64,000 nucleotides of DNA from a virus. How positions within the stretch are numbered: position 1 is the first letter of the stretch; every line of letters begins with the position of its first letter. The stretch lies in IMG/VR virus record IMGVR_UViG_3300021490_000002, positions 1 through 64,000 of that record; one strand, given 5' to 3'. Below, in pieces: positions 4,268 through 57,570 of the stretch. Position numbers and translations under genes: made by a program. Below the pieces are notes generated by a model that did no database searches, was not told where the DNA came from, and worked only from the letters and a program-made list of their open reading frames with translations.

Positions 4268-4759
4268 TTACTCTTGTGGTGGGTTGTTGAGGAGTGAGAC
4301 TACGTATTCAAGTTCTACGTGCTCTGTTTCTTCTACTACACCCCAGTCCCATATTATTTCGTCTAGGGCCTCTTCTGTTTCTGCGTTTCTGATTTCATTC
4401 TTTGTCTGGTAGTAGTATGCCATAACGCTGCTAATCCAGTCCCACACTTTTTGAATTTCATTAATGACATCTGTATTCCCAGAATCTTTAGCAATCTGGT
4501 AGAGGGATAGGAAGCTGGCTTGTGTTCCCTGATTGTAGTGTGAGCATATAAAGTCCTCAAATTCTTTTTTGAGTTTTGCTAATTTATATTCTTTCAATTC
4601 ATCTAGTGTGTACCCTGGAAGGGGTGTGTTTCCTTCCGAAATCCAGTCCATGATTTCATTGTAATGTCTGTTTCCAGGGTCCAGAGGAACAAACATTCCG
4701 TCTAATAAATATCCTTTAAGTTCTTTTGTCTCCATGTCTCTTACTTCTTTTACTTCCAT
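4268..4759 (-). CDS. Tail fibre assembly-like protein, paralogue of 34438
   Basis: A 163-residue protein with GAGGAGG upstream of its ATG. Its C-terminal ~95 residues (from about KLAKLKKEFEDF to the end) closely match those of the plus-strand protein at 34438-35004; both contain SHY..GTQASFLSLYQ.AKD, EIQKVW.W and VEETEH.EL. The N-terminal halves differ, and this one is shorter. It lies 15 bp downstream of a LamG-type fibre, while its paralogue lies directly behind another fibre. That arrangement is typical of fibre assembly chaperones (Caudo_TAP/DUF4376-like organisation), so a chaperone or fibre-cap role is inferred. The conserved helical half probably contacts something common to both fibre sets. 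Confidence 0.6.
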   Translation of the reverse strand: MEVKEVRDMETKELKGYLLDGMFVPLDPGNRHYNEIMDWISEGNTPLPGYTLDELKEYKLAKLKKEFEDFICSHYNQGTQASFLSLYQIAKDSGNTDVINEIQKVWDWISSVMAYYYQTKNEIRNAETEEALDEIIWDWGVVEETEHVELEYVVSLLNNPPQE

Positions 4760-4774
4760 GATTTAACCTCCTCT

Positions 4775-6319
4775 TTATAGTTCAGCATCAAATCTATATG
4801 GACTTGATAAGATTGTAGGTATGGTTCTCATTGGAATAATCCTGTCATTATAGGAATACGTTCCATCATCCGAATACCTGTAATACCTCAAGCACCTTAT
4901 CCTTTGCATATCTGGAGGGATGTATTCATATGCAGTTGCAACATCCCCTTCTTCTAGTTGAACATAATTTACCTTTATCCAATCTCCTACATCTTCCAAG
5001 CAATTCTCTCCGATTACTACCCTAAATGCCTCTTTCTCATAAAAGTGTATCTTATCAATATCAATATCTATTAAATCAAACGTAACTGAGAGCGTCTGAT
5101 ACTCTCCGTTTCCAGTGTACGCAAGCGTCCGAGTCCTATAAACCGTGTCATCTGAATATTTTAAAGAAACCTCAATATTTCTTGGCTTGTTTGAGGCTAG
5201 CTTAAACGAAATCGTGACTGGGCTCTTTTTAATTAAAATGTCCGAAACCATATTCCCTTCTATCCTCTGCTCTAAAGGAATGACTCTGTTGGATGTTCCC
5301 TTCTCCAGTAGAGTTATCTTACATGATTGTTTTTCAACTATTGACTTTCCTGTCTCTTGGACCAGAGATTGGATTTCAAATGGCTGGAGGACTTTGTTGA
5401 AAATTCTTACCTGGTCTATCTTATAGTTTTTGCTGGTCCACTGGTTTCCTATATAAACCCAACCGTCATTATGGTAGAGGTAATTGCTTTCAGTCGCCTC
5501 TACTTCATTATCAAAAGTTCCATCAATGTATAATTTTAGATGGGTTCGGTCTATGGTAACCGTTATATTGTGCCATTGTCTATAATTTAACAGTGTGTTG
5601 GCATATAAGAATTTTAACTTGTCTCTATACCAAGTATTGGCAATATAACGAAATCCGTTTTCAACTACTACTTGCCGATTGTCGGTGCTTACTAACCATA
5701 TACCAGGTTGCCTAGAATTATCCTGCGTAGTCTTCCACTGGTTGGTGTAACGATATGTTGTATCTTTTCCGTCAGGTGTTAGATGAAAGATATTTTGTCC
5801 AGCTCCTATATGTCCATACACATAAATCCATAAAGAGACTGTAAATTCGTTTGTCCCCCCTCTCTGAACCTTGTTTTCCGTTCTGAGCCAGCTACCCGTT
5901 CCTTTGTTGTAGTAATCTATACATCCGCCGAATTTTCCCATTCCCCAAACAATATTATTTTCTATGCAGTTATAGTTTCCCCCTAGGTCCTGTCCGTTTC
6001 CATCCAAAGGCCAGCAGGCAAGACAACTTCCATCTCCTAGAATATCCAGCACATCAACTGTAGCGCCCGCTTCTCCTGCAATCTCTATGTAGTTTAGACA
6101 TTCAATTTTGTTATCGTCAAAAGCTCCGCTCAGCCATCTATCAAAGGTATATTGTTTATTATTCTGAATAATAAATTTTTGTCCTCTTTGCATGACAGTA
6201 AAGTCACCATTAATTATCCTGTTCTTGTATCCAGAAATTGTAATTCTTTCTGTTCCAGGAATTATTGTTTCTAGGTCTCTTATTACTGTCTCTGTTATTG
6301 GGTCGTATATGTAACTCAT
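4775..6319 (-). CDS. Tail fibre with LamG/concanavalin-like domain (copy A)
   Basis: A 514-residue protein. The N-terminus MSYIYDPITETV is a variant of the YNPFT tag shared by other fibres here. Residues 30-52 carry a common fibre motif (RIINGDFTVMQRGQKF, then YTFDRWLSG). Residues about 95-320 form a LamG-type lectin fold, ending with WHNITVTIDRTHLKLYIDG and IDQVRIFNKVL. A second beta domain follows (330-480), with the DWIKVNYVQLEEG and ATAYEYIPPDMQRIRCLRYY region typical of phage tip proteins. It is a tandem paralogue of 6338-7819, 18 bp apart. AAGGAG precedes the ATG. A carbohydrate-binding receptor role is expected from the fold. Confidence 0.75.
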   Translation of the reverse strand: MSYIYDPITETVIRDLETIIPGTERITISGYKNRIINGDFTVMQRGQKFIIQNNKQYTFDRWLSGAFDDNKIECLNYIEIAGEAGATVDVLDILGDGSCLACWPLDGNGQDLGGNYNCIENNIVWGMGKFGGCIDYYNKGTGSWLRTENKVQRGGTNEFTVSLWIYVYGHIGAGQNIFHLTPDGKDTTYRYTNQWKTTQDNSRQPGIWLVSTDNRQVVVENGFRYIANTWYRDKLKFLYANTLLNYRQWHNITVTIDRTHLKLYIDGTFDNEVEATESNYLYHNDGWVYIGNQWTSKNYKIDQVRIFNKVLQPFEIQSLVQETGKSIVEKQSCKITLLEKGTSNRVIPLEQRIEGNMVSDILIKKSPVTISFKLASNKPRNIEVSLKYSDDTVYRTRTLAYTGNGEYQTLSVTFDLIDIDIDKIHFYEKEAFRVVIGENCLEDVGDWIKVNYVQLEEGDVATAYEYIPPDMQRIRCLRYYRYSDDGTYSYNDRIIPMRTIPTILSSPYRFDAEL

Positions 6320-6337
6320 CTTAAGGAACTCCTTTGA

Positions 6338-7819
6338 TTAAAGTTCAGCATCATATATATAATATGACCCTACATGAGAAATTGTTGGGTCTGTTCTCAT
6401 AACGACAAGCTTTTTGAAGTGGTTGTAACTATTATCATCCATTATTCTGTAGTAGCGGATACATCTAAGATACTCCACATCAACAGGAATGTTTTCAAAG
6501 TATGTGGCTTCCTCTCCCTCCTCCATTTGTATGTTTTTTATTTTTATCCAATCTCCCGCATATTCAAGGTCTCCTTCTCCTATAACTAATCTAAAGGCCT
6601 CTCGCTCAGTTAATTTGTCTGGTTCGTTCGTAGTGTCTATGGAACTTAAATCAAACGTGGTTGACAATAACTGATAGTTCCCACTACCAGAGTAAGATAC
6701 TGTATTCTCTGCATAAGTAGATTCATCAGGATTTTTGATAGCTACTTTAAAATCTCTATTGACATTTGAGGCCAGCTCAAATGATACCGTAACTTTTTCT
6801 TTCTGGAGGATTAAGTCGTAGGCAAACGTTCCTTCTATCCTTTGCTCCAGAGGAATAACGTTATTAGAAGACCCCTTATTGACAAGCTTTACTCTATAAA
6901 GCAATCCATATTTTTCCCGTTCTGTCATCTCTTCTATACGAATGTGATTAATCTCTTCTGCCGTTAATATCTTTTTAAAGATTCTTACTTGGTCTATCTT
7001 GAAATTTTTGTAGTGCCATTTATTTCCTATATAAAAATAGCCATCATTGTGTTTGAAATTTTCTGATGCCGTAAATTCGTCTGTAAGCTCTCCATCAATA
7101 TATAGCTGGATGGTTTGAAGGCCTACGGTTACCACAATGTGATGCCATTCATTGAATGTTATCCCTCCAGTCGTCTTATATATTCCAATATCTCCGTGAG
7201 TAACCCCATCATTTTTTATAGTAAATTTTGTATTATCATCATGACAAAGCCATAGAGCTGGCTGGCGAGAATTTCCATTATTGTTATTGTTGTCTGGAGA
7301 TAGATGCCATATGCTAATGCTCTTTCCAAGACTTCCATATACATAAATCCAAGCGCTTATGCTTATCTCATTAGTCCCGCCTCTAGCGATTTTGTTGTTT
7401 GTGACCATGTAACTTGTCTCAGGAGCATTATTGTAATCAATACATTCATATAGCATTCCGTCTTCTGTAAAACTTACATCGTGCCCAGTGAGAGGGTAGT
7501 TCCCGCTGAGGTCCAAAAAATCTCTATCTAAATTCCAGCAGGCCAAGCAACTATTATCGTCCAAAATATCTAAGACATAACCAGGGATTATTGTTGAGCA
7601 TTGAATATCATTATCATCAAAGGCCCCGCTTAACCATCTGTCTGCAGTGTATTTTTTATCATTCTTTATTCTAAATAAACTTCCCCGTTGATAAAATCTA
7701 AAGCTTCCATTTATCAGTCTGTTTTTGAACTCAATAAAAGGTAGGTCGTCTAGGCTGGGACCCTCTGCTCGCTTGGTTTCATATAGTTTCCGTGTGAAAG
7801 GGTTATACTTATAAGCCAT
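6338..7819 (-). CDS. Tail fibre with LamG/concanavalin-like domain (copy B)
   Basis: The frame opens at 7849, but the ATG at 7817-7819 gives MAYKYNPFTRKLYE, aligning with its paralogue and the YNPFT tag, and has GAGGG 7-8 nt upstream; the product is 493 residues. Domain order matches copy A: RLINGSFRFYQRG, YTADRWLSGAFDD, a LamG-like lectin fold (SAWIYVYGSLG to YIDGELTDEF and IDQVRIFKKIL), then a beta domain with NNVIPLEQRIEG and GDWIKIKNIQMEEGE. The copies keep this skeleton but differ in surface loops, as expected for alternative receptor-binding proteins. It is transcribed away from the capsid operon through the divergent region at 7820-7949. Confidence 0.75.
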   Translation of the reverse strand: MAYKYNPFTRKLYETKRAEGPSLDDLPFIEFKNRLINGSFRFYQRGSLFRIKNDKKYTADRWLSGAFDDNDIQCSTIIPGYVLDILDDNSCLACWNLDRDFLDLSGNYPLTGHDVSFTEDGMLYECIDYNNAPETSYMVTNNKIARGGTNEISISAWIYVYGSLGKSISIWHLSPDNNNNNGNSRQPALWLCHDDNTKFTIKNDGVTHGDIGIYKTTGGITFNEWHHIVVTVGLQTIQLYIDGELTDEFTASENFKHNDGYFYIGNKWHYKNFKIDQVRIFKKILTAEEINHIRIEEMTEREKYGLLYRVKLVNKGSSNNVIPLEQRIEGTFAYDLILQKEKVTVSFELASNVNRDFKVAIKNPDESTYAENTVSYSGSGNYQLLSTTFDLSSIDTTNEPDKLTEREAFRLVIGEGDLEYAGDWIKIKNIQMEEGEEATYFENIPVDVEYLRCIRYYRIMDDNSYNHFKKLVVMRTDPTISHVGSYYIYDAEL

Positions 7820-7949
7820 GTTTATACCCTCATTTTTTGCTTGATTCACTTTAAACTATAATCTATTGCTTGACAATAATCTACTTATATCAGTAATATT
7901 GACACAAGTATATAGAACATATAATGATTTTTTTCTCGGAGGATTAGCT
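7820..7949. promoter_or_regulatory. Divergent promoter region
   Basis: This 130-bp gap separates leftward fibre genes from the rightward capsid operon. Plus-strand candidates are TTGACA (7870-7875) with TAATAT (7894-7899) at 18 nt, and TTGACA (7899-7904) with TATAAT (7920-7925) at 15 nt. On the minus strand TTGTCA with a 17-nt spacer and TAAAGT (about 7851-7879) could drive the fibres. A GGAGG at about 7939 serves the gene at 7950. Confidence 0.55.
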
Positions 7950-8690
7950 ATGAGTAAAATTCTGCTTCCTGCAGAAGCGCCTTTAGATTTATACAAGGCA
8001 GCCTTCATATTTTATAAGAAGTATAATCTAAACTTTTGTGACTTTCTTTTTATTTACCCTAACAAACCTTTCACGGTGAGGAATAATGATATTTTACTAG
8101 GTGTAAATATAGAAGTGAACGAAAAAGTTGTCAAACTCAATTCCCTAGAGGAAGCGGTTAGTTATCTAGGAGCATCAGATGAATTTGAATTTCTCTTTTC
8201 CATTCCAGACTCAGTTCTTTTAGGTTTTAGTGTGAAAGACAAAACCCTTACCTTAATAAGATTGTTTGAGTTCTTTTCTACCTACTATAGAAATCTAGTT
8301 AGAAATACGCCTTTGACAGAATTACTTGACAAAATAGACATCGTAAAATATAATAATCTGAAAATAAGTATCCAAAAAGATGGACACTTTATCTCTCCAG
8401 AAGAGCGACTTGTCTTATTCAAAAGTCCTGGAGTGGACTTTTGTATCTTTTATTCCAACGGGACAGTTGGAATACAGAAGAATTTAATTAGAAAGAAGAC
8501 GCCCCTTCTCACACAATTATCTCTGAAGAAATATCTGCCGACCGAATACAATTGGTTTATTCACAGGCGGGGACATCTGCTGGTGTCTAAGTCAAATGTG
8601 AAAGAGGATATGATTGATGTTGTAAGAGAGGCCTTAATTAAGGCCTTGAAAGATTTTAAGCAAGATAAGGAGGAAACTTATGAGGGTTAA
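7950..8690 (+). CDS. Hypothetical protein, first gene of rightward operon
   Basis: The frame is open from 7866, but the ATG at 7950 (MSKILLPAEAPLDL) has GGAGG 7 nt upstream and is preferred, giving 246 residues. It is an alpha/beta protein with no secure family. The C-terminal part (VDFCIFYSNGTVGIQ, then WFIHRRGHLLVSKS) faintly recalls a DHHA1-type module, but the DHH motifs are not visible. The gene carries perfect hairpins within its coding sequence: 8421-8428/8435-8442, 8451-8459/8466-8474, and an 18-bp palindrome at 8629-8646. It overlaps the next gene by 11 bp and precedes the decoration and capsid genes, so a head role such as protease or maturation is possible but unproven. Confidence 0.5.
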   Translation: MSKILLPAEAPLDLYKAAFIFYKKYNLNFCDFLFIYPNKPFTVRNNDILLGVNIEVNEKVVKLNSLEEAVSYLGASDEFEFLFSIPDSVLLGFSVKDKTLTLIRLFEFFSTYYRNLVRNTPLTELLDKIDIVKYNNLKISIQKDGHFISPEERLVLFKSPGVDFCIFYSNGTVGIQKNLIRKKTPLLTQLSLKKYLPTEYNWFIHRRGHLLVSKSNVKEDMIDVVREALIKALKDFKQDKEETYEG

Positions 8691-9156
8691 ATATCCAATG
8701 TGTGTTAGTGGAGATGGCATCGGCAAATGGTTTAAACTAAATGCAAACCTGACAATCAAGCCGATGTCTGGAAGATTTATAGGGATGAACTCTAGCAATG
8801 AACTTGTGCTCATTAATGGAAGTACTGGAGGAAAAATCTTAGGCTGGTTAGACATGCCTAACGATGCTCGTGTATATCAAATGTCTGACATCTTTGAATC
8901 TACCCTTCATCCAGATTACACTTATAAGGCTGGCGACCATGTGTTTTTAATCACTCAAGACTTAGGAGACTCTTTGTTTAGAGTTCCTCTTGTCGGTGGT
9001 TCTTTGAGTGATGTTGTAGAGGGCAAGGCAATGGCCTTAGTAGTAAATAGTGATGGCCTACAGGGTATAGACACTTCCTACAGTGGCACAGAGCAGCACG
9101 TAATTATATTTAGTGCTGAGAGTGAGGAAGATATTATCGTGAAACCTATTGTCTAA
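8680..9156 (+). CDS. Probable head decoration protein, paralogue of 32353
   Basis: A 158-residue beta-rich protein with AAGGAGG before the ATG, lying immediately upstream of the major capsid gene, the usual place for a decoration protein. It shares GWLDMPNDARVYQM and then PDYTYKAGD with the protein at 32353-32823, and both repeat an SGRF(I/V)G segment near residue 30. The overall pattern (a beta-barrel that places a value, reads a default and returns a state) resembles other phage decoration-like domains. Its paralogue sits in the fibre cluster, so an alternative reading is a capping domain used on both head and tail. Confidence 0.55.
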   Translation: MRVKYPMCVSGDGIGKWFKLNANLTIKPMSGRFIGMNSSNELVLINGSTGGKILGWLDMPNDARVYQMSDIFESTLHPDYTYKAGDHVFLITQDLGDSLFRVPLVGGSLSDVVEGKAMALVVNSDGLQGIDTSYSGTEQHVIIFSAESEEDIIVKPIV

Positions 9157-32352: not shown

Positions 32353-32823
32353 ATGGCTTTACTATATCCACGTCCAGTGACTGCCTGTTACGGCGTTTGG
32401 TTTACACTGGAAAACGACATAACTTTACTTAAGTATTCGGGAAGGTTTGTTGGGTATTCTATTGACACGGGCGAGCTAGTTTTAGCTAATGGTCCAAATG
32501 TTAAGGAGATAATCGGTTGGTTAGATATGCCCAACGATGCTCGTGTGTATCAGATGGAAAATGCGTATGAATCCATGAACAATCCAGATTACACTTACAA
32601 AGCTGGGGACCAGGTATTTCTAATTAATTCTATTCAGACTCGTTTTCTTATCCCAGCGGGAAGTGTGGCTGATTTGAAAGTTGGTATGTCTTATTCCTTG
32701 ACAATTGATTCTGACGGAAATCAAGTATTAGGACCACCCACACAATTACCTTCGTACGTTGTCTTGGATAAGGTTGAGGCCGATAACTATGTTATGGTAC
32801 ATCTACTAACAACACATTATTAA
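32353..32823 (+). CDS. Decoration-like protein, paralogue of 8680
   Basis: A 156-residue protein with AAGGAG upstream. It shares GWLDMPNDARVYQM and NPDYTYKAGDQVFLI with the protein upstream of the capsid gene, with a similar length and overall pattern; the sequences outside these blocks have diverged. It sits between the large beta protein and a repeat fibre. Either a decoration-type domain was duplicated and moved to the tail or the family has a role in both. It is a good marker for internal gene duplication. Confidence 0.55.
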   Translation: MALLYPRPVTACYGVWFTLENDITLLKYSGRFVGYSIDTGELVLANGPNVKEIIGWLDMPNDARVYQMENAYESMNNPDYTYKAGDQVFLINSIQTRFLIPAGSVADLKVGMSYSLTIDSDGNQVLGPPTQLPSYVVLDKVEADNYVMVHLLTTHY

Positions 32824-32840: not shown

Positions 32841-34418
32841 ATGACTACTTTTTCTGAATGGTTCAACGTAAATTATCCAGGAGCGGGTGGTGGTAGCGGT
32901 GGTGGAAATATGAATACAGAGACTTATGACCCTGATGAGGATGGTATAGTTTCCAAGGCGGAGGCTCTCAGCGACGGAAACACTGAGGTTACTGCTTCTG
33001 AAGCTGCCGATGCAGTGTCTAAGTCTCACGAACAAAATACAGATACTGGAACAACTGCTGAAGAGTTTTATATTGAACTTGATGGAGCTCAAATTCCAGT
33101 TAGAGCACATATTGAAAGCACTAATAATCCTCACCATGTTACTAAGTTTCAGATAGGGTTAGGGAATGTAGAGAATATAAAAAATAATCTGAATGCTACA
33201 CAACCACCCACAACAGTAGATGATGAAGGGGAAGGTTATTCTGTTGGTTCTAGGTGGATTGATGTTAATGAAAAGAAAGAATATGTTTGCTTAGATGCAA
33301 CCGAAGGTGCTGCTATCTGGAAAGAGACAACATATATAGCTAGTGTCATCAATTCTTTTTTAGGCCTTTCAGATACTCCATCCACTTATAATGGAAGTGG
33401 AGGAAAGTTCTTACGTGTCTCTGATAGTGAGGATGGGATAGTTTTTGACACTGTACCTGAAGGTAATGAAGGAGATATGCGCACAGATGTTTATGACCCC
33501 GACAAAGATGGTATAGTAACTAAAGCAGAGATTCTTAGTAATGGAAGTACTGAGGTTACTGCTTCTGAGGCTGCTGATGCGGTAGGAAAAGCACACAATC
33601 AAAATACAGATACGGGAACAACTGCTGAAGAGTTTTACATAGATACTGAAAATGCTAATATTCCTGTTAGGGCCCACATAGAGAACACCAACAATCCGCA
33701 TCACGTGACAAAGAGTCAAATAGGTCTGGGTAATGTTGAAAACATAAAAAATAACTTAAACGCTACAGTATCTCCTTCTTCCAGTAACGATAGTAGTGAG
33801 GGTTACTCTGTAGGTTCTAGGTGGGTTAATGTTGACTCAAAAAAGGAATACGTTTGTCTGGATGCGACTGAGGGTGCTGCTATCTGGAAAGAGACAACAT
33901 ACATAGCAGACGTTATTACCACGTTTTTAGGATTGTCTGATACTCCAGATACCTACAGTGGAAGTGGAGGAAAGTTTGTTCAAGTTTCTGAGAATGAAGA
34001 TGGCTTAGTTTTTACTGAGTCCGCTCCAAACGATATAACTGCCCTGGAGATTCTAAATAAACTAAAAACGGTTGACGGAGCTGGTAGCGGACTTGATACT
34101 GATTTTATTAGAGGCCTTCCTGGGGATTTCACTTGCAGTAAGAATCCAATTGGATTTACTAAACTTCCAAACGGTATAATAATCCAATGGGGTAGAGTGG
34201 AAGAAGTTGAAGACGAACTTTGGGTTGTTTTTTATCCTATAGTTTTTCCAAATGACGTGTTATTTATTACCTTATCTACTCCCGTTAGATATAATACACA
34301 TATTCGTATGAAAAAAGATGAGGCTAATGTACTTGTTGAGGTGACAGATGCCTGGTTTTCTTTTAAAGGCGCACATAAAGAAGAAGCAGATTATTATTGG
34401 ATAGCGTTAGGCTACTAA
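32841..34418 (+). CDS. Tail fibre with duplicated ~195-residue module
   Basis: A 525-residue protein with GAGGAGG before the ATG. After a short anchor (FSEWFNVNYPGAG plus Gly-rich linker) two near-identical modules follow, each running from TYDPDEDGIVSKAE / VYDPDKDGIVTKAE through the (H.QNTDTGTTAEEFYI) and NNPHHVTK.QIGLGNVENIK blocks to FLGLSDTP.TY and GSGGKF. The last ~130 residues form a different beta tip domain with IIIQWGRVEE. Modules repeat at a period of about 585 bp in DNA. NPHHVTK.QIGLGNV is a common collagen-like phage fibre motif. The FLGLSDTP motif recurs in other fibres here. Confidence 0.75.
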   Translation: MTTFSEWFNVNYPGAGGGSGGGNMNTETYDPDEDGIVSKAEALSDGNTEVTASEAADAVSKSHEQNTDTGTTAEEFYIELDGAQIPVRAHIESTNNPHHVTKFQIGLGNVENIKNNLNATQPPTTVDDEGEGYSVGSRWIDVNEKKEYVCLDATEGAAIWKETTYIASVINSFLGLSDTPSTYNGSGGKFLRVSDSEDGIVFDTVPEGNEGDMRTDVYDPDKDGIVTKAEILSNGSTEVTASEAADAVGKAHNQNTDTGTTAEEFYIDTENANIPVRAHIENTNNPHHVTKSQIGLGNVENIKNNLNATVSPSSSNDSSEGYSVGSRWVNVDSKKEYVCLDATEGAAIWKETTYIADVITTFLGLSDTPDTYSGSGGKFVQVSENEDGLVFTESAPNDITALEILNKLKTVDGAGSGLDTDFIRGLPGDFTCSKNPIGFTKLPNGIIIQWGRVEEVEDELWVVFYPIVFPNDVLFITLSTPVRYNTHIRMKKDEANVLVEVTDAWFSFKGAHKEEADYYWIALGY

Positions 34419-34437
34419 TTAAAAGGAGGTTATTAGC

Positions 34438-35004
34438 ATGAAATACGGTGTTTTTGATGAGAAAGGATTACCACAGGGATTTTACGATAGTAAAATTCAC
34501 GGTTCTAACATTCCGACAGATGCGGTAGAAATTTCCGATAGTGTATGGTTGGAGCTTATTCAAAATCCTGGGAAAAGGGCTTATGTTGGTGGGACTATTA
34601 TTGACATTTCTGCTAAGAAGTGGGACTCTTCTACAAATCAATGGGTAGATAAAAGCACAGACGAAATTTTGAATCCTTTGAAGGAAGCAAAAGCTGCTAA
34701 GCTAAAGGCAGAACTTCAGGACTTTGTATATTCGCATTATGATAACGGCACACAAGCTAGTTTCCTTTCTCTTTACCAGCTTGCAAAGGATAAAGGCAGA
34801 ACCGATATAATTACTGAAATCCAAAAGGTATGGGCATGGGTGAATACCGTCATGAATTACTACTACAACAAAAAATCCAGCATCCTAAACGCAACATCAA
34901 TAGATGAGTTGAATGCTATAACATGGGATTGGAGTGAAGTAGAGGAGACGGAGCATATTGAACTATCCACAATTATGGCAATGTTTAATCAAGAACAGCA
35001 ATAA
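34438..35004 (+). CDS. Tail fibre assembly-like protein, paralogue of 4268
   Basis: A 188-residue protein with AAGGAGG upstream. The N-terminal ~80 residues (YGVFDEKGLPQGFYDSKI, VEISDSVWLELIQNPGKRAY) follow the tail-fibre-assembly pattern (Caudo_TAP), and the C-terminal ~95 residues are a conserved helical module shared with the minus-strand protein at 4268. It lies 19 bp after the fibre gene. Chaperone or trimer-cap roles are expected by analogy. The paralogue lacks part of the N-terminal domain. Confidence 0.65.
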   Translation: MKYGVFDEKGLPQGFYDSKIHGSNIPTDAVEISDSVWLELIQNPGKRAYVGGTIIDISAKKWDSSTNQWVDKSTDEILNPLKEAKAAKLKAELQDFVYSHYDNGTQASFLSLYQLAKDKGRTDIITEIQKVWAWVNTVMNYYYNKKSSILNATSIDELNAITWDWSEVEETEHIELSTIMAMFNQEQQ

Positions 35005-35019
35005 TAAAGGGGGCATAAA

Positions 35020-35202
35020 ATGAAGATTTCGTTTTTTAAAGCAATTTCTTTGGTAGGTCTTTTGGCAGAGGAATTAACTGAAATCGCAGCGGACGGAAAA
35101 ATAACTATCAAAGAGGCTATCGGTTTGGTAGAGAAAATTTGTGAAAAACTTGGAATAGACTTTGATAAAGAGGGGATAGATATTATAAAAAAGGAGGGCT
35201 AA
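35020..35202 (+). CDS. Small helical phage protein (60 aa)
   Basis: A 60-residue protein with AAGGGGG upstream. The sequence (FKAISLVGLLAEELTEIAAD, then GKITIKEAIGLVEKICEKLG) matches a short two-helix pattern common beside phage lysis and fibre genes, sometimes with the phrase DGKIT. There is no clear transmembrane segment. Stop and next start are 4 bp apart. The function is unknown. Confidence 0.55.
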   Translation: MKISFFKAISLVGLLAEELTEIAADGKITIKEAIGLVEKICEKLGIDFDKEGIDIIKKEG

Positions 35203-35206
35203 CGAA

Positions 35207-35632
35207 ATGCCTTTCATTGGCGACATTATAACAAAACAACTTCCCCCAAGAATAGAGAAAAGGAAACTTTTTGGAATAATTCCTTATAAGAAAACTATTC
35301 TTGAGTGGGAAGTTTATGAGCCCTTGACATATGTGGATGAAATTTTTGAAATAAAAATTACAGTTCCGAAGGGAGCTACGACAGATTTCGCATCTACGCC
35401 TCGTATTGTCTGGCCTGTTCTTCCTCCAGTAGGACGCTACAGCGGGCCTGCTATAGTTCATGACTATATGTATAGGCATGGACTATATAATAGAAAGATA
35501 GCTGACTTTGTATTTCTTCATGCCATGATGGACATTGGAGTTCCTACCTGGAAACAAGTTGTAATGTTTGAGGCAGTCAGATTATTTGGGTGGAAATCAT
35601 ATAGAAAGTTGGAAAAACTCAGAGAGGGTTAG
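35207..35632 (+). CDS. DUF1353 phage protein
   Basis: A 141-residue protein with GGAGG before its ATG. It follows the DUF1353 pattern: ITVPKGATTDFASTPRIVWP, then PVGRYSGPAIVHDYMYRHGL and ADFVFLHAMMDIGVPTWK, ending MFEAVRLFGWKSY. The conserved TDFAS and HDY.Y residues are all present. The family is widespread in phages near fibre and lysis genes and of unconfirmed function. It is unfused and of normal length. Confidence 0.8.
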   Translation: MPFIGDIITKQLPPRIEKRKLFGIIPYKKTILEWEVYEPLTYVDEIFEIKITVPKGATTDFASTPRIVWPVLPPVGRYSGPAIVHDYMYRHGLYNRKIADFVFLHAMMDIGVPTWKQVVMFEAVRLFGWKSYRKLEKLREG

Positions 35633-35634
35633 TA

Positions 35635-36336
35635 ATGCAATTTGCATTTAATCCATTTACAGATTCTTTAGATGCCGTTGGAGGTGGGGGAGCTGGGTTT
35701 GCATCAGGAAGCATTATATGGTGGCCAGATACACTAGCTCCTCCATCTGGATGGTTAAAATGCGATGGGTCTTTGGTCAGCAAAGAAGATTACCCTGCTT
35801 TATTTGAAGTTATTGGATATACTTTTGGACAGGATAATGGTCGAAACATACCATTAATCGTAGAGCATTCTGACTACACATCATCTACTGGAACTGTAAG
35901 AGCATCTTCTGAGTATAGCTCAAGCTATCGTGCCTGGTATCCACTTACTACTTCCCAGCCCACCTACTGTTCTGCAACTACAAGTTCTGGAGAATGGTGG
36001 GAGTATGAATTTACAGAACCAAAATTAGTTGCCAAGTTTACTATTAATGTGAAAGCTAATTCTTTTACAATTAGATTAGAAGGCAGTAACGACGGCTCAA
36101 CATATACAACGTTAATGGAAGGTGTATCCATAAATAATGGAACACATACTGTTGACATCCCAGAAGCTGCTCAAGCTGAGTTTTTAATTTATCGGTTGAC
36201 AATGACAAGTTCTGGGAATTGGTTCTGGTTTGATGACTTCCAATTTTATGACTATATTCCTCCTGACCCTAATCTTTTTGGTCTTCCTAATATTAATACT
36301 GGAATTAGTAACATAATAGCAATAATCAGAGTTTAA
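35635..36336 (+). CDS. Tail collar fibre with nested discoidin-like domain
   Basis: A 233-residue protein. It begins with the tag FAFNPFTDSLDAV and a Gly linker, then a phage tail collar half (SIIWWPDTLAPPSGWLKCDG, EDYPALFEVIGYTFG). Instead of finishing the collar domain, a ~145-residue insert follows that reads as an F5/8 type C (discoidin) fold (ASSEYSSSYRAWYPLT, YEFTEPKLVAKFTIN, IRLEGSNDGSTYTTL, FLIYRLTMTSSG). The collar resumes at FGLPNINTG and ends IIAIIRV. The nested lectin-like domain is a plausible receptor binder. It is short and overlaps nothing. Confidence 0.7.
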   Translation: MQFAFNPFTDSLDAVGGGGAGFASGSIIWWPDTLAPPSGWLKCDGSLVSKEDYPALFEVIGYTFGQDNGRNIPLIVEHSDYTSSTGTVRASSEYSSSYRAWYPLTTSQPTYCSATTSSGEWWEYEFTEPKLVAKFTINVKANSFTIRLEGSNDGSTYTTLMEGVSINNGTHTVDIPEAAQAEFLIYRLTMTSSGNWFWFDDFQFYDYIPPDPNLFGLPNINTGISNIIAIIRV

Positions 36337-36350
36337 GGAGTGTTGGTCTT

Positions 36351-37433
36351 ATGGGACTCGTATATAATCCTTTTACTAATAACTTAGATTATGTAAGAGA
36401 TGCTGAAAGCGGTGGGGGAGCTAATCTCTTTCCAGGCGATATAATCACTACATTAAACTGGACAGACAGAAGTCCCGATGACTTTGACATATTTGGATAT
36501 ACAAAGTCATTTCCCTTAAATGTGACTAACGGAGCTAACCATCCTTATGGAAATCAAGTGCGTGTGCCATATCAACATGATGTTAGAACTGTTGATAACA
36601 CATTCTGGATGTTTTCAGGTTGTAATAATGCTGGCTTGACATCTTTAGTTAGATACTACGACCCAAAAACAAATAGCTGGACCAGTAGGGGAAATGCTCC
36701 TATCACTATCCGCAGTGGGATTACATTATACGACTCTAACAGAGATGTTTTTTATTATGGAATGGGATATACAAATTATAATGCTACGAATTATACGAAC
36801 AGATTCTTTGTTTATAGTCCTTCAACAAATACGTGGATGGAGCTCTCTCCTTTTCCAGAAAGTGAGGATGCAACAAGGGCATGTGCAATCGTCGAAGGGA
36901 GCTACGTTTATGTGTTTGGCGGGCCGTTGCGTAAAATTTATAGGTATGATATAGACACAGATACTTGGGAATATTTAGATGAATATACTGATGGGACTGT
37001 TCAACTCGCCACAAAAGTTTCTGATGGAAGTATTATTTGCAAAAAATTTGTTAATGCTACGTTGCGAAAGATTATAAAGTTTAGAATTCCCGATTTTCAC
37101 AACTATGAGGAGGTCTGCTCAGATACTTCTGCTCTTACCAATGGTAGTGATGTTGGAAGTGAGAAGTTTGCTGAATTCAACGGGCTTTTGGTAATGTCTT
37201 ATGTGGACTATTCAGCACAATACTATGAAAACCCTCATATTATTGCTTTTGATTTATTTAATAACAAGTATCTTGGGACAATAGCTAATAAAACGTTAGC
37301 TTGTTTAAACACAGCTTATGGATTTACCTCCGATGGAACTTTAATAGCAATAGGAGGGACTACGTTTAATAACCAACACGTGTGGCTGGTAAAGGACTTT
37401 GGAAGGGTGGCAAGAATGCTTATTAAGAAATAA
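36351..37433 (+). CDS. Kelch-type beta-propeller fibre
   Basis: A 360-residue protein. It starts with the tag LVYNPFTNNLDYV and an acidic/Gly linker. From about residue 75 Kelch-type blades follow: VRYYDPKTNSWTSRG, FFVYSPSTNTWMELSPF, YVYVFGGPLRKIYRYDIDTD, IIAFDLFNNKYLG, then ending TLIAIGGTTFNNQHVWLVK. Kelch propellers bind proteins or glycans. The shared tag with the preceding collar protein and two minus-strand fibres suggests a common attachment site on the virion. It is the last fibre before the moron cassette. Confidence 0.7.
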   Translation: MGLVYNPFTNNLDYVRDAESGGGANLFPGDIITTLNWTDRSPDDFDIFGYTKSFPLNVTNGANHPYGNQVRVPYQHDVRTVDNTFWMFSGCNNAGLTSLVRYYDPKTNSWTSRGNAPITIRSGITLYDSNRDVFYYGMGYTNYNATNYTNRFFVYSPSTNTWMELSPFPESEDATRACAIVEGSYVYVFGGPLRKIYRYDIDTDTWEYLDEYTDGTVQLATKVSDGSIICKKFVNATLRKIIKFRIPDFHNYEEVCSDTSALTNGSDVGSEKFAEFNGLLVMSYVDYSAQYYENPHIIAFDLFNNKYLGTIANKTLACLNTAYGFTSDGTLIAIGGTTFNNQHVWLVKDFGRVARMLIKK

Positions 37434-40050: not shown

Positions 40051-40803
40051 TTGATACATAATAAAATTTACATATTTGGAAAATCTAGCGTCACTTACCA
40101 TAATATCCCGCTACATTATGATATTATGGTGATTCCCTATCCGCAGGCGATAGATTATAAGAATATTGCAGATAGAATGGATTTTACTGGCGTATTAATG
40201 GACATGGGCACTGGAACGTTTGAGCCTATATTTCTTAGGAAACTACCTATATTTCAAAAAATCTTTAATGTATTTCTCCCTAATAGAGCTGAAATAAACA
40301 AAATGTTGGACCTCCAGTTTTTGATAGAGGGGCGTTACCTATCCTTTTGGTTTACTGCTATGGAAGAGGATTTTAGACCTGTTGGCTATGCTCCTTTCCA
40401 TGTTCCAGATGAATTTGAGATTTATAAGTACGAAGCTGGGATGCAGTATTTTTATAGTTTAAACTGGGGTCAGAAATCAATTGAGGATGTTTATAAGCAG
40501 AGAATGGTCGCTATTGTATATGATGGATTTTCCAAAATTCACTTTAACCAAATTTCGTCTATGGAAATTCAATTAGACTATAGGGTTCTAAAAGTAAACT
40601 TGGATTATCCTATGCCAGAAATAATCGTAAGTGATATTGATGTAATTACTACGTTTTTGTATGTGCGAAGTAATAAGGAAGATATTACTTTTAACTTTGT
40701 TACGTCTGATATTGCCTATGTTACTTTGGACTTGGTTGAGGACTACAAAAATTATTATAACCCATTTACTGAGTCTCCAAAGATTTACCCTGAAGGAGTG
40801 TAA
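40051..40803 (+). CDS. Distal tail protein-like (Dit/DUF2460-type position)
   Basis: A 250-residue protein that appears to start at a TTG (40051) behind GGAGTGAGG; no better start is seen. The segment (IFQKIFNVFLPNRAEINKML, then LIEGRYLSFWFTAMEED) resembles the R..ELx.FL...GR...FW pattern of distal tail proteins that precede BR0599/DUF2163 proteins. It is followed 2 bp later by such a protein, supporting the call. A 9-bp hairpin (40098-40106/40121-40129) lies in its coding sequence. Confidence 0.5.
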   Translation: MIHNKIYIFGKSSVTYHNIPLHYDIMVIPYPQAIDYKNIADRMDFTGVLMDMGTGTFEPIFLRKLPIFQKIFNVFLPNRAEINKMLDLQFLIEGRYLSFWFTAMEEDFRPVGYAPFHVPDEFEIYKYEAGMQYFYSLNWGQKSIEDVYKQRMVAIVYDGFSKIHFNQISSMEIQLDYRVLKVNLDYPMPEIIVSDIDVITTFLYVRSNKEDITFNFVTSDIAYVTLDLVEDYKNYYNPFTESPKIYPEGV

Positions 40804-55851: not shown

Positions 55852-57570
55852 ATGTTCCAAAAGTTTGGTAGAGGCCTAACCCAACCCTGGTCATTTTTGG
55901 ATTTAAATGACACACCCAACTCATACTCCCTACCAGAGGGCCTGTTTCAAATAGCCAAAACAGGCGACCAAGTAGTGGTAGCTCCTGTAGTTCCCGTTTA
56001 TCGTATGGGAACTGCAGGAGAAAATATTAGTAAAGGGAATGTTGTCTATATTGGGTCGGATGGAAATTATTATCAGCCAACTGAATATTCTAAGGATTAT
56101 GACATAGTTGGAGTGGCTTATAATGATGCTGCTGAAGGCGATTCATTACTAATTATTGTCTTCGGCATTATTAATGGTTTTGAAAATTTAAAAACAGGGA
56201 AGAAGTATTTTCTCGATAAAAACTTGCACTTAACTACAGATACATTAAAAGGTAAAATTCAGTATGGTATCGCAGTCTCAGAGACTGAAATATTAATAGA
56301 ATTATTTTCAGGAACAAGTACCTTCGGAGGTGGTGGAATGATAGATATGTTTGAAAAAAGGGAGGAGTATGATTCCAACGGAAACCTTATTTTTGAAGGT
56401 TCTGCTCCTCCAGGAAGTAAGGAGTCAGACCCTGTTTGGTTTATCCAAAGATATATCTATGAATCAAACAGTAGAAAAGTAACCCGTTTGTTTGCAAATA
56501 GAGATACTGAATTCAACAAGGTTTGGCGCTATAGGGAATACTATAATTACTTTGATGTTTTTAGCGAATTATACGAATATGACGAAAATGGATTTTTGAA
56601 GTATAAAGGGAAAGGAATTCCTGGAGCTACACCTGACTCTCTAGGCTGGGTAATTGCAAGAAATACGGCTGATGCTAACGGTAACACCATTGAGCTGGGG
56701 TATGCTGAAGGAAATCGTATAACGCATAAGAACATCTGGAACAACAGAGAGTCTTACAATTACGAGGTTGGGCACGTTGTTCTCATAGAATATGATACGC
56801 ATGGATATATTGTATATAAAGGCACAAGCGAAGCTGGAAAACAAACAGATAAACCTATTTGGACCATAGAAAAGTATGTTTATTACGGAAATAAGTTGTA
56901 TTCAATTGGCGTCGAAGAGAACGTTGCGTGGGATAATAGGGAAGCATATGACTACTCTTCCAAATATATCTACTTATCCTCTGCAGATGGGACTTACATT
57001 GGAGTCGCTGAGTCTCCAGCTTACCCTACAGACCCTGTGTGGGAGATAACTAAAGTTGTGACTGACCCAGATACAGGCAACGTTATCAAAATCCAAAAGA
57101 GGACTTCAGTTCGCTGGAGTGAAAAAGAAACGCTAGACTATACTCAGGAATATTGTGAGCTTTATGATTACGATGACGACGGAAAGCTTATTTATGTAGG
57201 TAAAACTAATACTCCTGGGCATGAAGAATGGAAGAATATTTGGGTAATAGAAAAGAATGTTATAGATGAAGCTACAGGACAATTGTTGCACGTATCAGTT
57301 GCTAACAAGAACCTAGAAAGCGACAACGTTTGGTCTCTCAGAGAGTCATATAATTATGATGAAGGAATCATTAGAATATATGATTACGATACTGACGGAA
57401 AAGTAATTTACGAAGGACATACAGTTGCAGGCGCTAAAACATCAGACCCTGCGTTTTTAATATATAAATTTAACTATGATGTTGACAGGAATATTGTCTC
57501 AAAACTATTACCAAATACAGACCCACAGGAATATAATAAAGTATGGGACGATAGGGCCACATACTTTTAA
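55852..57570 (+). CDS. Fibre with decoration-like head and six ~66-residue repeats
   Basis: A 572-residue protein. Residues 14-35 hold the DTP motif (FLDLNDTPNSYSLPEGLF). Residues 45-155 form a decoration-like beta domain (GENISKGNVVYIGSDGNYYQ, then YDIVGVAYNDAAEGD). From about 165 to the end six repeats follow, each with YD.(D/N)G...Y.G, then P.W.I and W..RE.Y.Y; the last ends KVWDDRATYF. This repeat type is common in phage tail proteins. It is the last gene of the rightward unit and ends in the bidirectional terminator. Confidence 0.65.
   Translation: MFQKFGRGLTQPWSFLDLNDTPNSYSLPEGLFQIAKTGDQVVVAPVVPVYRMGTAGENISKGNVVYIGSDGNYYQPTEYSKDYDIVGVAYNDAAEGDSLLIIVFGIINGFENLKTGKKYFLDKNLHLTTDTLKGKIQYGIAVSETEILIELFSGTSTFGGGGMIDMFEKREEYDSNGNLIFEGSAPPGSKESDPVWFIQRYIYESNSRKVTRLFANRDTEFNKVWRYREYYNYFDVFSELYEYDENGFLKYKGKGIPGATPDSLGWVIARNTADANGNTIELGYAEGNRITHKNIWNNRESYNYEVGHVVLIEYDTHGYIVYKGTSEAGKQTDKPIWTIEKYVYYGNKLYSIGVEENVAWDNREAYDYSSKYIYLSSADGTYIGVAESPAYPTDPVWEITKVVTDPDTGNVIKIQKRTSVRWSEKETLDYTQEYCELYDYDDDGKLIYVGKTNTPGHEEWKNIWVIEKNVIDEATGQLLHVSVANKNLESDNVWSLRESYNYDEGIIRIYDYDTDGKVIYEGHTVAGAKTSDPAFLIYKFNYDVDRNIVSKLLPNTDPQEYNKVWDDRATYF

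Follow-up and report, generated by a model that had tools for sequence, protein, structure and literature searches.

How can one virus particle hold fiber proteins whose heads are unrelated to each other? The question is raised by the virus record IMGVR_UViG_3300021490_000002 from IMG/VR, of which the window (the whole 64,000-nucleotide stretch analyzed) covers bases 1-64000 of 81254. Sample numbers of near-identical relatives suggest that the phage comes from vent sediment. Fiber genes on both strands of this window share a short N-terminal peptide, here called the tag. We found the same tag at the N-termini of proteins of unrelated phages, mostly behind a small gene whose product ends in a conserved β-rich domain, here called the dock, and we found six dock domains in tandem within one open reading frame (ORF) of the window, 55852..57570 (+). 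Probably the short N-terminal peptide serves as a plug, by which many interchangeable heads can be fitted to one virus. As for this phage, we lean towards the reading that the tag is a plug on the tagged proteins and that the docks are its sockets, six of them collected on one scaffold, so that several heads could be borne by one particle.

The N-terminal tag in this phage and beyond

The first-pass annotation had described four fiber ORFs and their heads, and both ORF calls and Pfam searches agree with it. On the minus strand, the proteins of 6338..7819 and 4775..6319 contain a Laminin_G_3 (LamG) domain (Pfam, 6.1e-21 and 3.6e-14, respectively); the former starts at 7819, an upstream GTG start at 7849 also being possible. 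On the plus strand, the head of 35635..36336 combines Collar (2.1e-15) with the discoidin domain F5_F8_type_C (2.6e-07), and that of 36351..37433 is made of Kelch motifs (1.8e-15). Because 4775 and 6338 are 43% identical over their whole length, they are, as judged by alignment, a single duplicated head and not two independent cases.

The four proteins begin with MSYIYDPITETVIRDLE (4775, minus), MAYKYNPFTRKLYETKR (6338, minus), MQFAFNPFTDSLDAVGGGG (35635, plus) and MGLVYNPFTNNLDYVRD (36351, plus). F or Y is residue 5 in all of them, and [FY]NPFT is present in 6338, 35635 and 36351. ORFs were scored with a tag matrix of 12 columns, derived from the tagged N-termini of a set of 92 viral stretches (see below) with 48 training tags; 36351 is among these through its near-identical copies L081 and L098, and 35635, 6338 and a gene at 77366-78052 of the record are not. 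Among the 162 ORFs of the record, the top scores belonged to 36351 (37.6 bits; YNPFTNNLDYVR, residues 5-16, 36363..36398, +), 35635 (23.8; FNPFTDSLDAVG, residues 5-16, 35647..35682, +), 77366-78052 (10.1) and 6338 (8.9; YNPFTRKLYETK, residues 5-16, 7772..7807, -), followed by a fifth-best ORF with 0.1 bits. In a comparison set of 3345 ORFs, four true tags scored 17.7-28.4 and all others ≤5.4. By this matrix, four tags of the record stand above background, and a chance origin was rejected because their scores are well apart from those of background ORFs. The sharing of the tag was thus upheld for 6338, 35635 and 36351; the YDPIT of 4775, which had been counted with them, is not recognizable alone. 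Its residues 5-16 (6272..6307, -) score -13.9 and align with the tag of 6338, and YDPIT appears to be a decayed tag copy that only the paralogy with 6338 reveals.

The gene at 77366-78052 (-), outside the window and at about 14366-15052 in L107, has the tag-like sequence MPFKYNPFLGNLSWW. It gave no Pfam match and directly follows, in the early region, a gene that by eye resembles those of nucleotide metabolism. A further YNPFT at 40756 was rejected as an N-terminal tag, as it forms the C-terminus of another ORF.

Searching for the tag as a DNA pattern, [FY]NPFT-x-x-[L/F]-D-[F/Y]-V, yielded 92 stretches of the viral collection, where about one is expected by chance (uniform-base estimate), and 11 matches among bacterial and archaeal genomes totaling 257 Gb. 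Only two of these 11 sit behind a dock, both in Bacteroidales/Bacteroidetes metagenome-assembled genomes (L303, L306). A start codon lies ≤11 residues upstream of the tag in 88 of the 92 viral matches, at exactly four residues in 61. Given these match counts and start-codon distances, the tag is, on sequence grounds, one that belongs to phages and to N-termini. Its conservation in relatives, on which the first-pass annotation had made its proposal depend, is clear. The tag usually occurs once per phage: of 32 tag-bearing records searched with the short DNA pattern, 27 matched, of which 26 did so once; G026 matched twice, its second match being a 13-residue frame. In tblastn searches against cultured phages, the tag found, besides Synechococcus phages, mostly baseplate-wedge proteins at E 5-9, which were treated as chance, and the LamG fiber found no match. 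Signal-peptide-like N-termini stand directly ahead of the tag in nine loci (L018, L034, L047, L061, L071, L116, L158, L161 and L179); the mature protein would start near the tag there, which is odd for a virion protein.

Dock genes and their linkage to the tag

Immediately 5′ of a tagged gene there is usually a small gene with a conserved β-rich stretch at its end; we distinguish two types of this stretch. The type-A consensus is about 'YDYIxLSYTGxNLTxVVYKxGG..VATLTLTYDGxxNLTSVTKS' and corresponds to phrog_26903, a family of unknown function matched by 31 of 38 dock proteins. Type B, with a consensus of about 'YIGxAxPG....VWxIxKLxYxG...ITWADG..FDxVWDNRASYTYS', had a PHROG match in none of 13 proteins. 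In 79 of the 92 viral tag matches, the same strand carries a dock ≤1200 nt upstream (65 type A and 14 type B, including two weak matches, L062 and L034, with E 0.21 and 0.09), and in 74 the dock lies ≤120 nt upstream. The remaining 13 of the 92 had neither type; two of these are copies of the window phage, and in two others the frame is not near a start. Dock and tagged genes are tightly coupled translationally and frequently overlap by 1 or 4 nt. In L016, L038 and L087, an ORF resembling GIY-YIG by eye is inserted between the two.

The linkage was also read in reverse, from loci fetched by dock-only DNA patterns, with L014, L024, L077, L061 and L078 set aside as already in the tag set. For type A, 70 of 73 dock ORFs had a tagged gene directly downstream (51 of 53 distinct N-termini), the exceptions being L227, L228 and the truncated L251. 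Among cultured phages, six of eight further dock-bearing records pass the tag matrix, and two have variant tags by eye; in L291 the tag lies ~22 residues inside the annotated gene. Behind the type-A dock of S-TIM5 (L294), the gp054 product shows an intermediate N-terminal form, MTAHFNFVSGKLRY; the product after the dock is annotated there as 'virion structural protein and packaging'. One type-B dock, searched by tblastn against cultured phages, gave no match. As a lead only, gp52 of Syn5 (L314), a weak fold match, looks YD-like by eye; its gene sits immediately upstream of the structural gene gp53, which is without the tag despite the same gene layout.

Very different heads follow these docks. 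We gathered 162 dock-tag pairs (139 A, 23 B), of which 153 have a head of ≥50 residues and 120 are nonredundant. Single-linkage clustering of their heads at E≤1e-3 gave 35 groups, and the biggest of these has 75 members. Alike docks combined with unlike heads in 1228 pairs, a number inflated by repeat masking and cut-off heads, so that we rely only on two pairs read by eye: L260 and L287, whose docks do not differ at any of the 48 residues compared, and L232 and L246, whose docks are 94% alike, in both cases with no detectable similarity of the heads. A separate survey took 65 proteins from the tag scan and added the window's four to make 69. Of the 92 matches in that scan, 69 were distinct and of sufficient length, and some of these were omitted by hand. 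Head types ranged from collagen repeats (10) to K1-lyase_C (2), plus others. The idea of the tag as a module has therefore held up: it occupies the extreme N-terminus, is kept in unrelated phages and in front of unrelated heads, and its gene order is tied to a dock.

When dock and tag were modeled with AlphaFold as a single chain, reading across the in-frame stop, the dock had four strands in both types, with predicted local distance difference test (pLDDT) values of about 83-95 in blocks of type B and 89-91 in type A. The tag was modeled as a hairpin with pLDDT of about 57 (type B) and about 74 (type A), and the consensus NPFTG would suit a β-turn. Sequence searches of the PDB returned no chain for the type-A profile or for 55852-57570, and for type B only matches at E 0.66-0.92. 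Foldseek found nothing at E≤0.001 for the type-B model (best 0.53). For the type-A model, six BFVD matches had E≤0.001, those named being the S-TIM5 and S-SRP01 docks and an uncultured phage protein; fold relatives among teneurin, DUF3836 and Rhs chains were set aside, as their best Z of 4.0 is too weak for a claim.

The six-dock ORF and how the tags may attach

No dock gene lies beside this phage's tags, and the type-A profile found nothing in its own record; 55852-57570 also lacks a phrog_26903 match at E≤0.05. When 11 docks of other phages were made into a type-B profile, it matched this ORF six times, with 162.1 bits compared with ≤9.1 bits in 500 shuffles. The repeats lie at 56350..56550 (43.9 bits), 56569..56763 (35.5), 56785..56958 (25.1), 56965..57135 (16.1), 57145..57357 (25.7) and 57382..57564 (33.7), all on the plus strand. 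A reciprocal profile made from the six repeats only retrieved 99 ORFs at E≤1e-3, and all 99 are type-B docks. Elsewhere, with near-identical copies of the window phage left out, more than one dock was found in none of 105 type-B and none of 146 type-A ORFs; the single match of a two-dock DNA pattern (L309) arose by chance and lies in the wrong frame. The only phage seen with several tags is also the only one seen with several docks. Among 14 loci of terminase relatives (three copies of this phage and 11 distant ones), no dock was found in the 11, and tblastn of the window's dock repeats against cultured phages gave no match.

Ahead of the repeats, residues 55-144 of the proposed scaffold (56014..56283, +) match Phage_cement_2 (PF09956) with 26.2 bits at a curated cut-off of 24. 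Such a domain presumably points to the capsid. It is no proof of a capsid location, because one of the 69 tag-set proteins also matches Phage_cement_2 (8.1e-4), and a location in the tail is equally possible.

From these data we propose the following scheme, in which we infer the physical binding, the geometry of the hairpin on the dock, the pairing of tags with docks in this phage and the position in the virion. The first ~16 residues would act as a plug; its motif, x-[FY]-N-P-F-T-[GN]-x-[LF]-D-[FY]-V, probably takes the form of a short β-hairpin that turns at NPFTG. This hairpin may rest on, or extend, the β-sheet of the small four-stranded YD-like dock. In most phages a small protein, translated immediately ahead of the tagged gene, would provide the dock as its C-terminus, with one dock per fiber; in this phage the docks would be gathered on 55852-57570 behind its cement-like domain, and one particle could bear Kelch, collar-discoidin and LamG heads. 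The single attachment site envisaged by the first-pass annotation would then become a probable dock domain that is present six times.

The least secure step is to assign the tags of this phage to its type-B docks; we do so because of the tag-dock rule elsewhere, the lack of a type-A dock in the record and the matching multiplicity of tags and docks, the latter in a single phage. A number of observations weigh against the scheme. The tag was not confidently placed by AlphaFold, and profile comparison did not establish homology between docks A and B (hhalign probability 6%); we do not call the two types homologous, though both models are four-stranded. The ORF 55852-57570 lies about 18 kb or more from the window's tagged genes, and its repeats resemble tag-linked type-B docks (23 docks, mean 34.3 bits) no more than they do the others (83 docks, 37.4 bits). 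For 11 of the tag matches whose start codon lies ≤30 residues away, the upstream search detected no dock; these include two copies of the window phage and some likely chance matches. Furthermore, 80 of 88 type-B dock ORFs are not followed by the tag (three of them at a record edge) and only eight are, and the short tag DNA pattern occurred anywhere in only two of 49 non-tag type-B records, these 49 being the part covered of 67 initially listed. Because so few tags are found downstream, and because a second N-terminal motif, K[FY]DY[VI]LGKLRE, follows type-B docks in L114, L127, L131 and L142 (L150 is similar), type-B docks are a broader class and not specific to the tag.

The same scarcity of tags, the second motif and the lack of a special closeness between the window's repeats and tag-linked docks would fit a different explanation, namely that type-B domains are a general structural block with other partners and that the tags dock elsewhere, on a virion protein that we did not recognize. 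We regard this as rather unlikely, since a type-A or type-B dock is the tag's neighbor in most of the other viral matches, no type-A dock exists in this record to serve instead, and multiple tags and multiple docks coincide in one phage. It is improbable, in our view, that the tag is the fiber's own N-terminal assembly element (a trimer cap or chaperone signal) and the small upstream protein an assembly factor instead of a dock. The 1- or 4-nt overlaps speak for it, as tight translational coupling is also typical of chaperone pairs, but peptide and partner stay the same across heads of very different architecture, this phage has a separate fiber-assembly-like gene at 34438, and fiber chaperones are usually encoded downstream and act on the C-terminus.

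The first-pass annotation had gone further and read the shared tag as a receptor-swap system encoded on both strands. Several heads do share one tag, and the cassettes of the two strands contain paralogous genes, yet an active swap system within this phage is hardly credible. All close relatives found are near-identical copies, ~99.9% identical in the fiber region, which is unchanged in them, so that no reassortment of heads was seen. No inverted repeats frame the cassettes either; the only inverted pair in 2-40 kb, an imperfect one of 20 nt, flanks neither of them. Coding on both strands seems merely to reflect two operons.

Known systems and neighboring genes

The principle of such attachment is already known. 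In K1-5, K1E, SP6, KP32 and PhiK64-1, heads attach via N-terminal peptides of 7-29 residues to T4gp10-like docks, and PhiK64-1 has several peptides and several docks (PMC6872550). These systems and ours have in common that variable heads are preceded by a short, conserved peptide at the N-terminus. In the K1-5/KP32 type, however, the T4gp10-like dock lies inside an anchor receptor-binding protein (RBP) or adaptor and the peptides differ by phage group (PMC6872550), whereas here a YD-like β-meander dock is mostly encoded by a separate small upstream gene and the same peptide occurs in unrelated phages. In 55852-57570, no Pfam or PHROG match to a T4gp10-like docking domain was found, and the fold look-ups list no convincing relative. 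TSP4 of CBA120 is a multi-domain scaffold that recruits several heads via XD domains and thus likewise has several similar β-domains on one scaffold; these are β-jellyrolls that bind folded head domains (PMC8825819), whereas a peptide ligand and six repeats are proposed here. With regard to families, phrog_26903 represents the type-A dock, whereas the docks of the window's scaffold are type B and have no PHROG match. The peptide, the YD-like dock and the six-fold dock array were not found in the literature searched, which covers few subscription papers.

In the cellulosome, cohesins and dockerins join many plug-bearing proteins to repeated sockets of one scaffold. Tentatively, and with more doubt than confidence, we suggest a cellulosome-like display in this phage: a cement-anchored six-socket scaffold would present mixed adhesins (LamG, Kelch, collar-discoidin and one or more others) on the same 12-residue hairpin, and the plug together with single-socket adaptors would be a common currency for the trade of heads among environmental siphoviruses, podoviruses and myoviruses. 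The likeness is one of architecture; the biology differs. If true, six sockets on one scaffold would be a compact and natural route to a multi-receptor particle. Most fibers of environmental phages are annotated as hypothetical, and a portable plug with an adjacent dock gene could provide a sequence handle for RBPs that are invisible to domain searches and predict what holds them.

The fiber genes are arranged in two cassettes. The minus-strand cassette runs from 7819 down to 4268 and comprises the LamG fiber 6338, its paralog 4775 and, downstream of both, a gene at 4268..4759 (-) that is homologous to the fiber-assembly-like gene 34438 (57% identity over 95 amino acids). The plus-strand cassette (32841 to 37433) starts with a Gp53-like_C fiber, followed by the tail fiber assembly-like gene 34438..35004 (+; phrog_188, 1.6e-08), two small genes and the tagged pair of collar-discoidin and Kelch proteins. 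The proposed scaffold gene is not adjacent to any tagged gene; it is the last plus-strand gene ahead of a minus-strand block. Two further genes of the window, 8680-9156 and 32353-32823, are paralogs with 41% identity; the latter precedes the plus-strand fibers, and the former lies just ahead of 9191, a gene that by eye resembles that of a major capsid protein.

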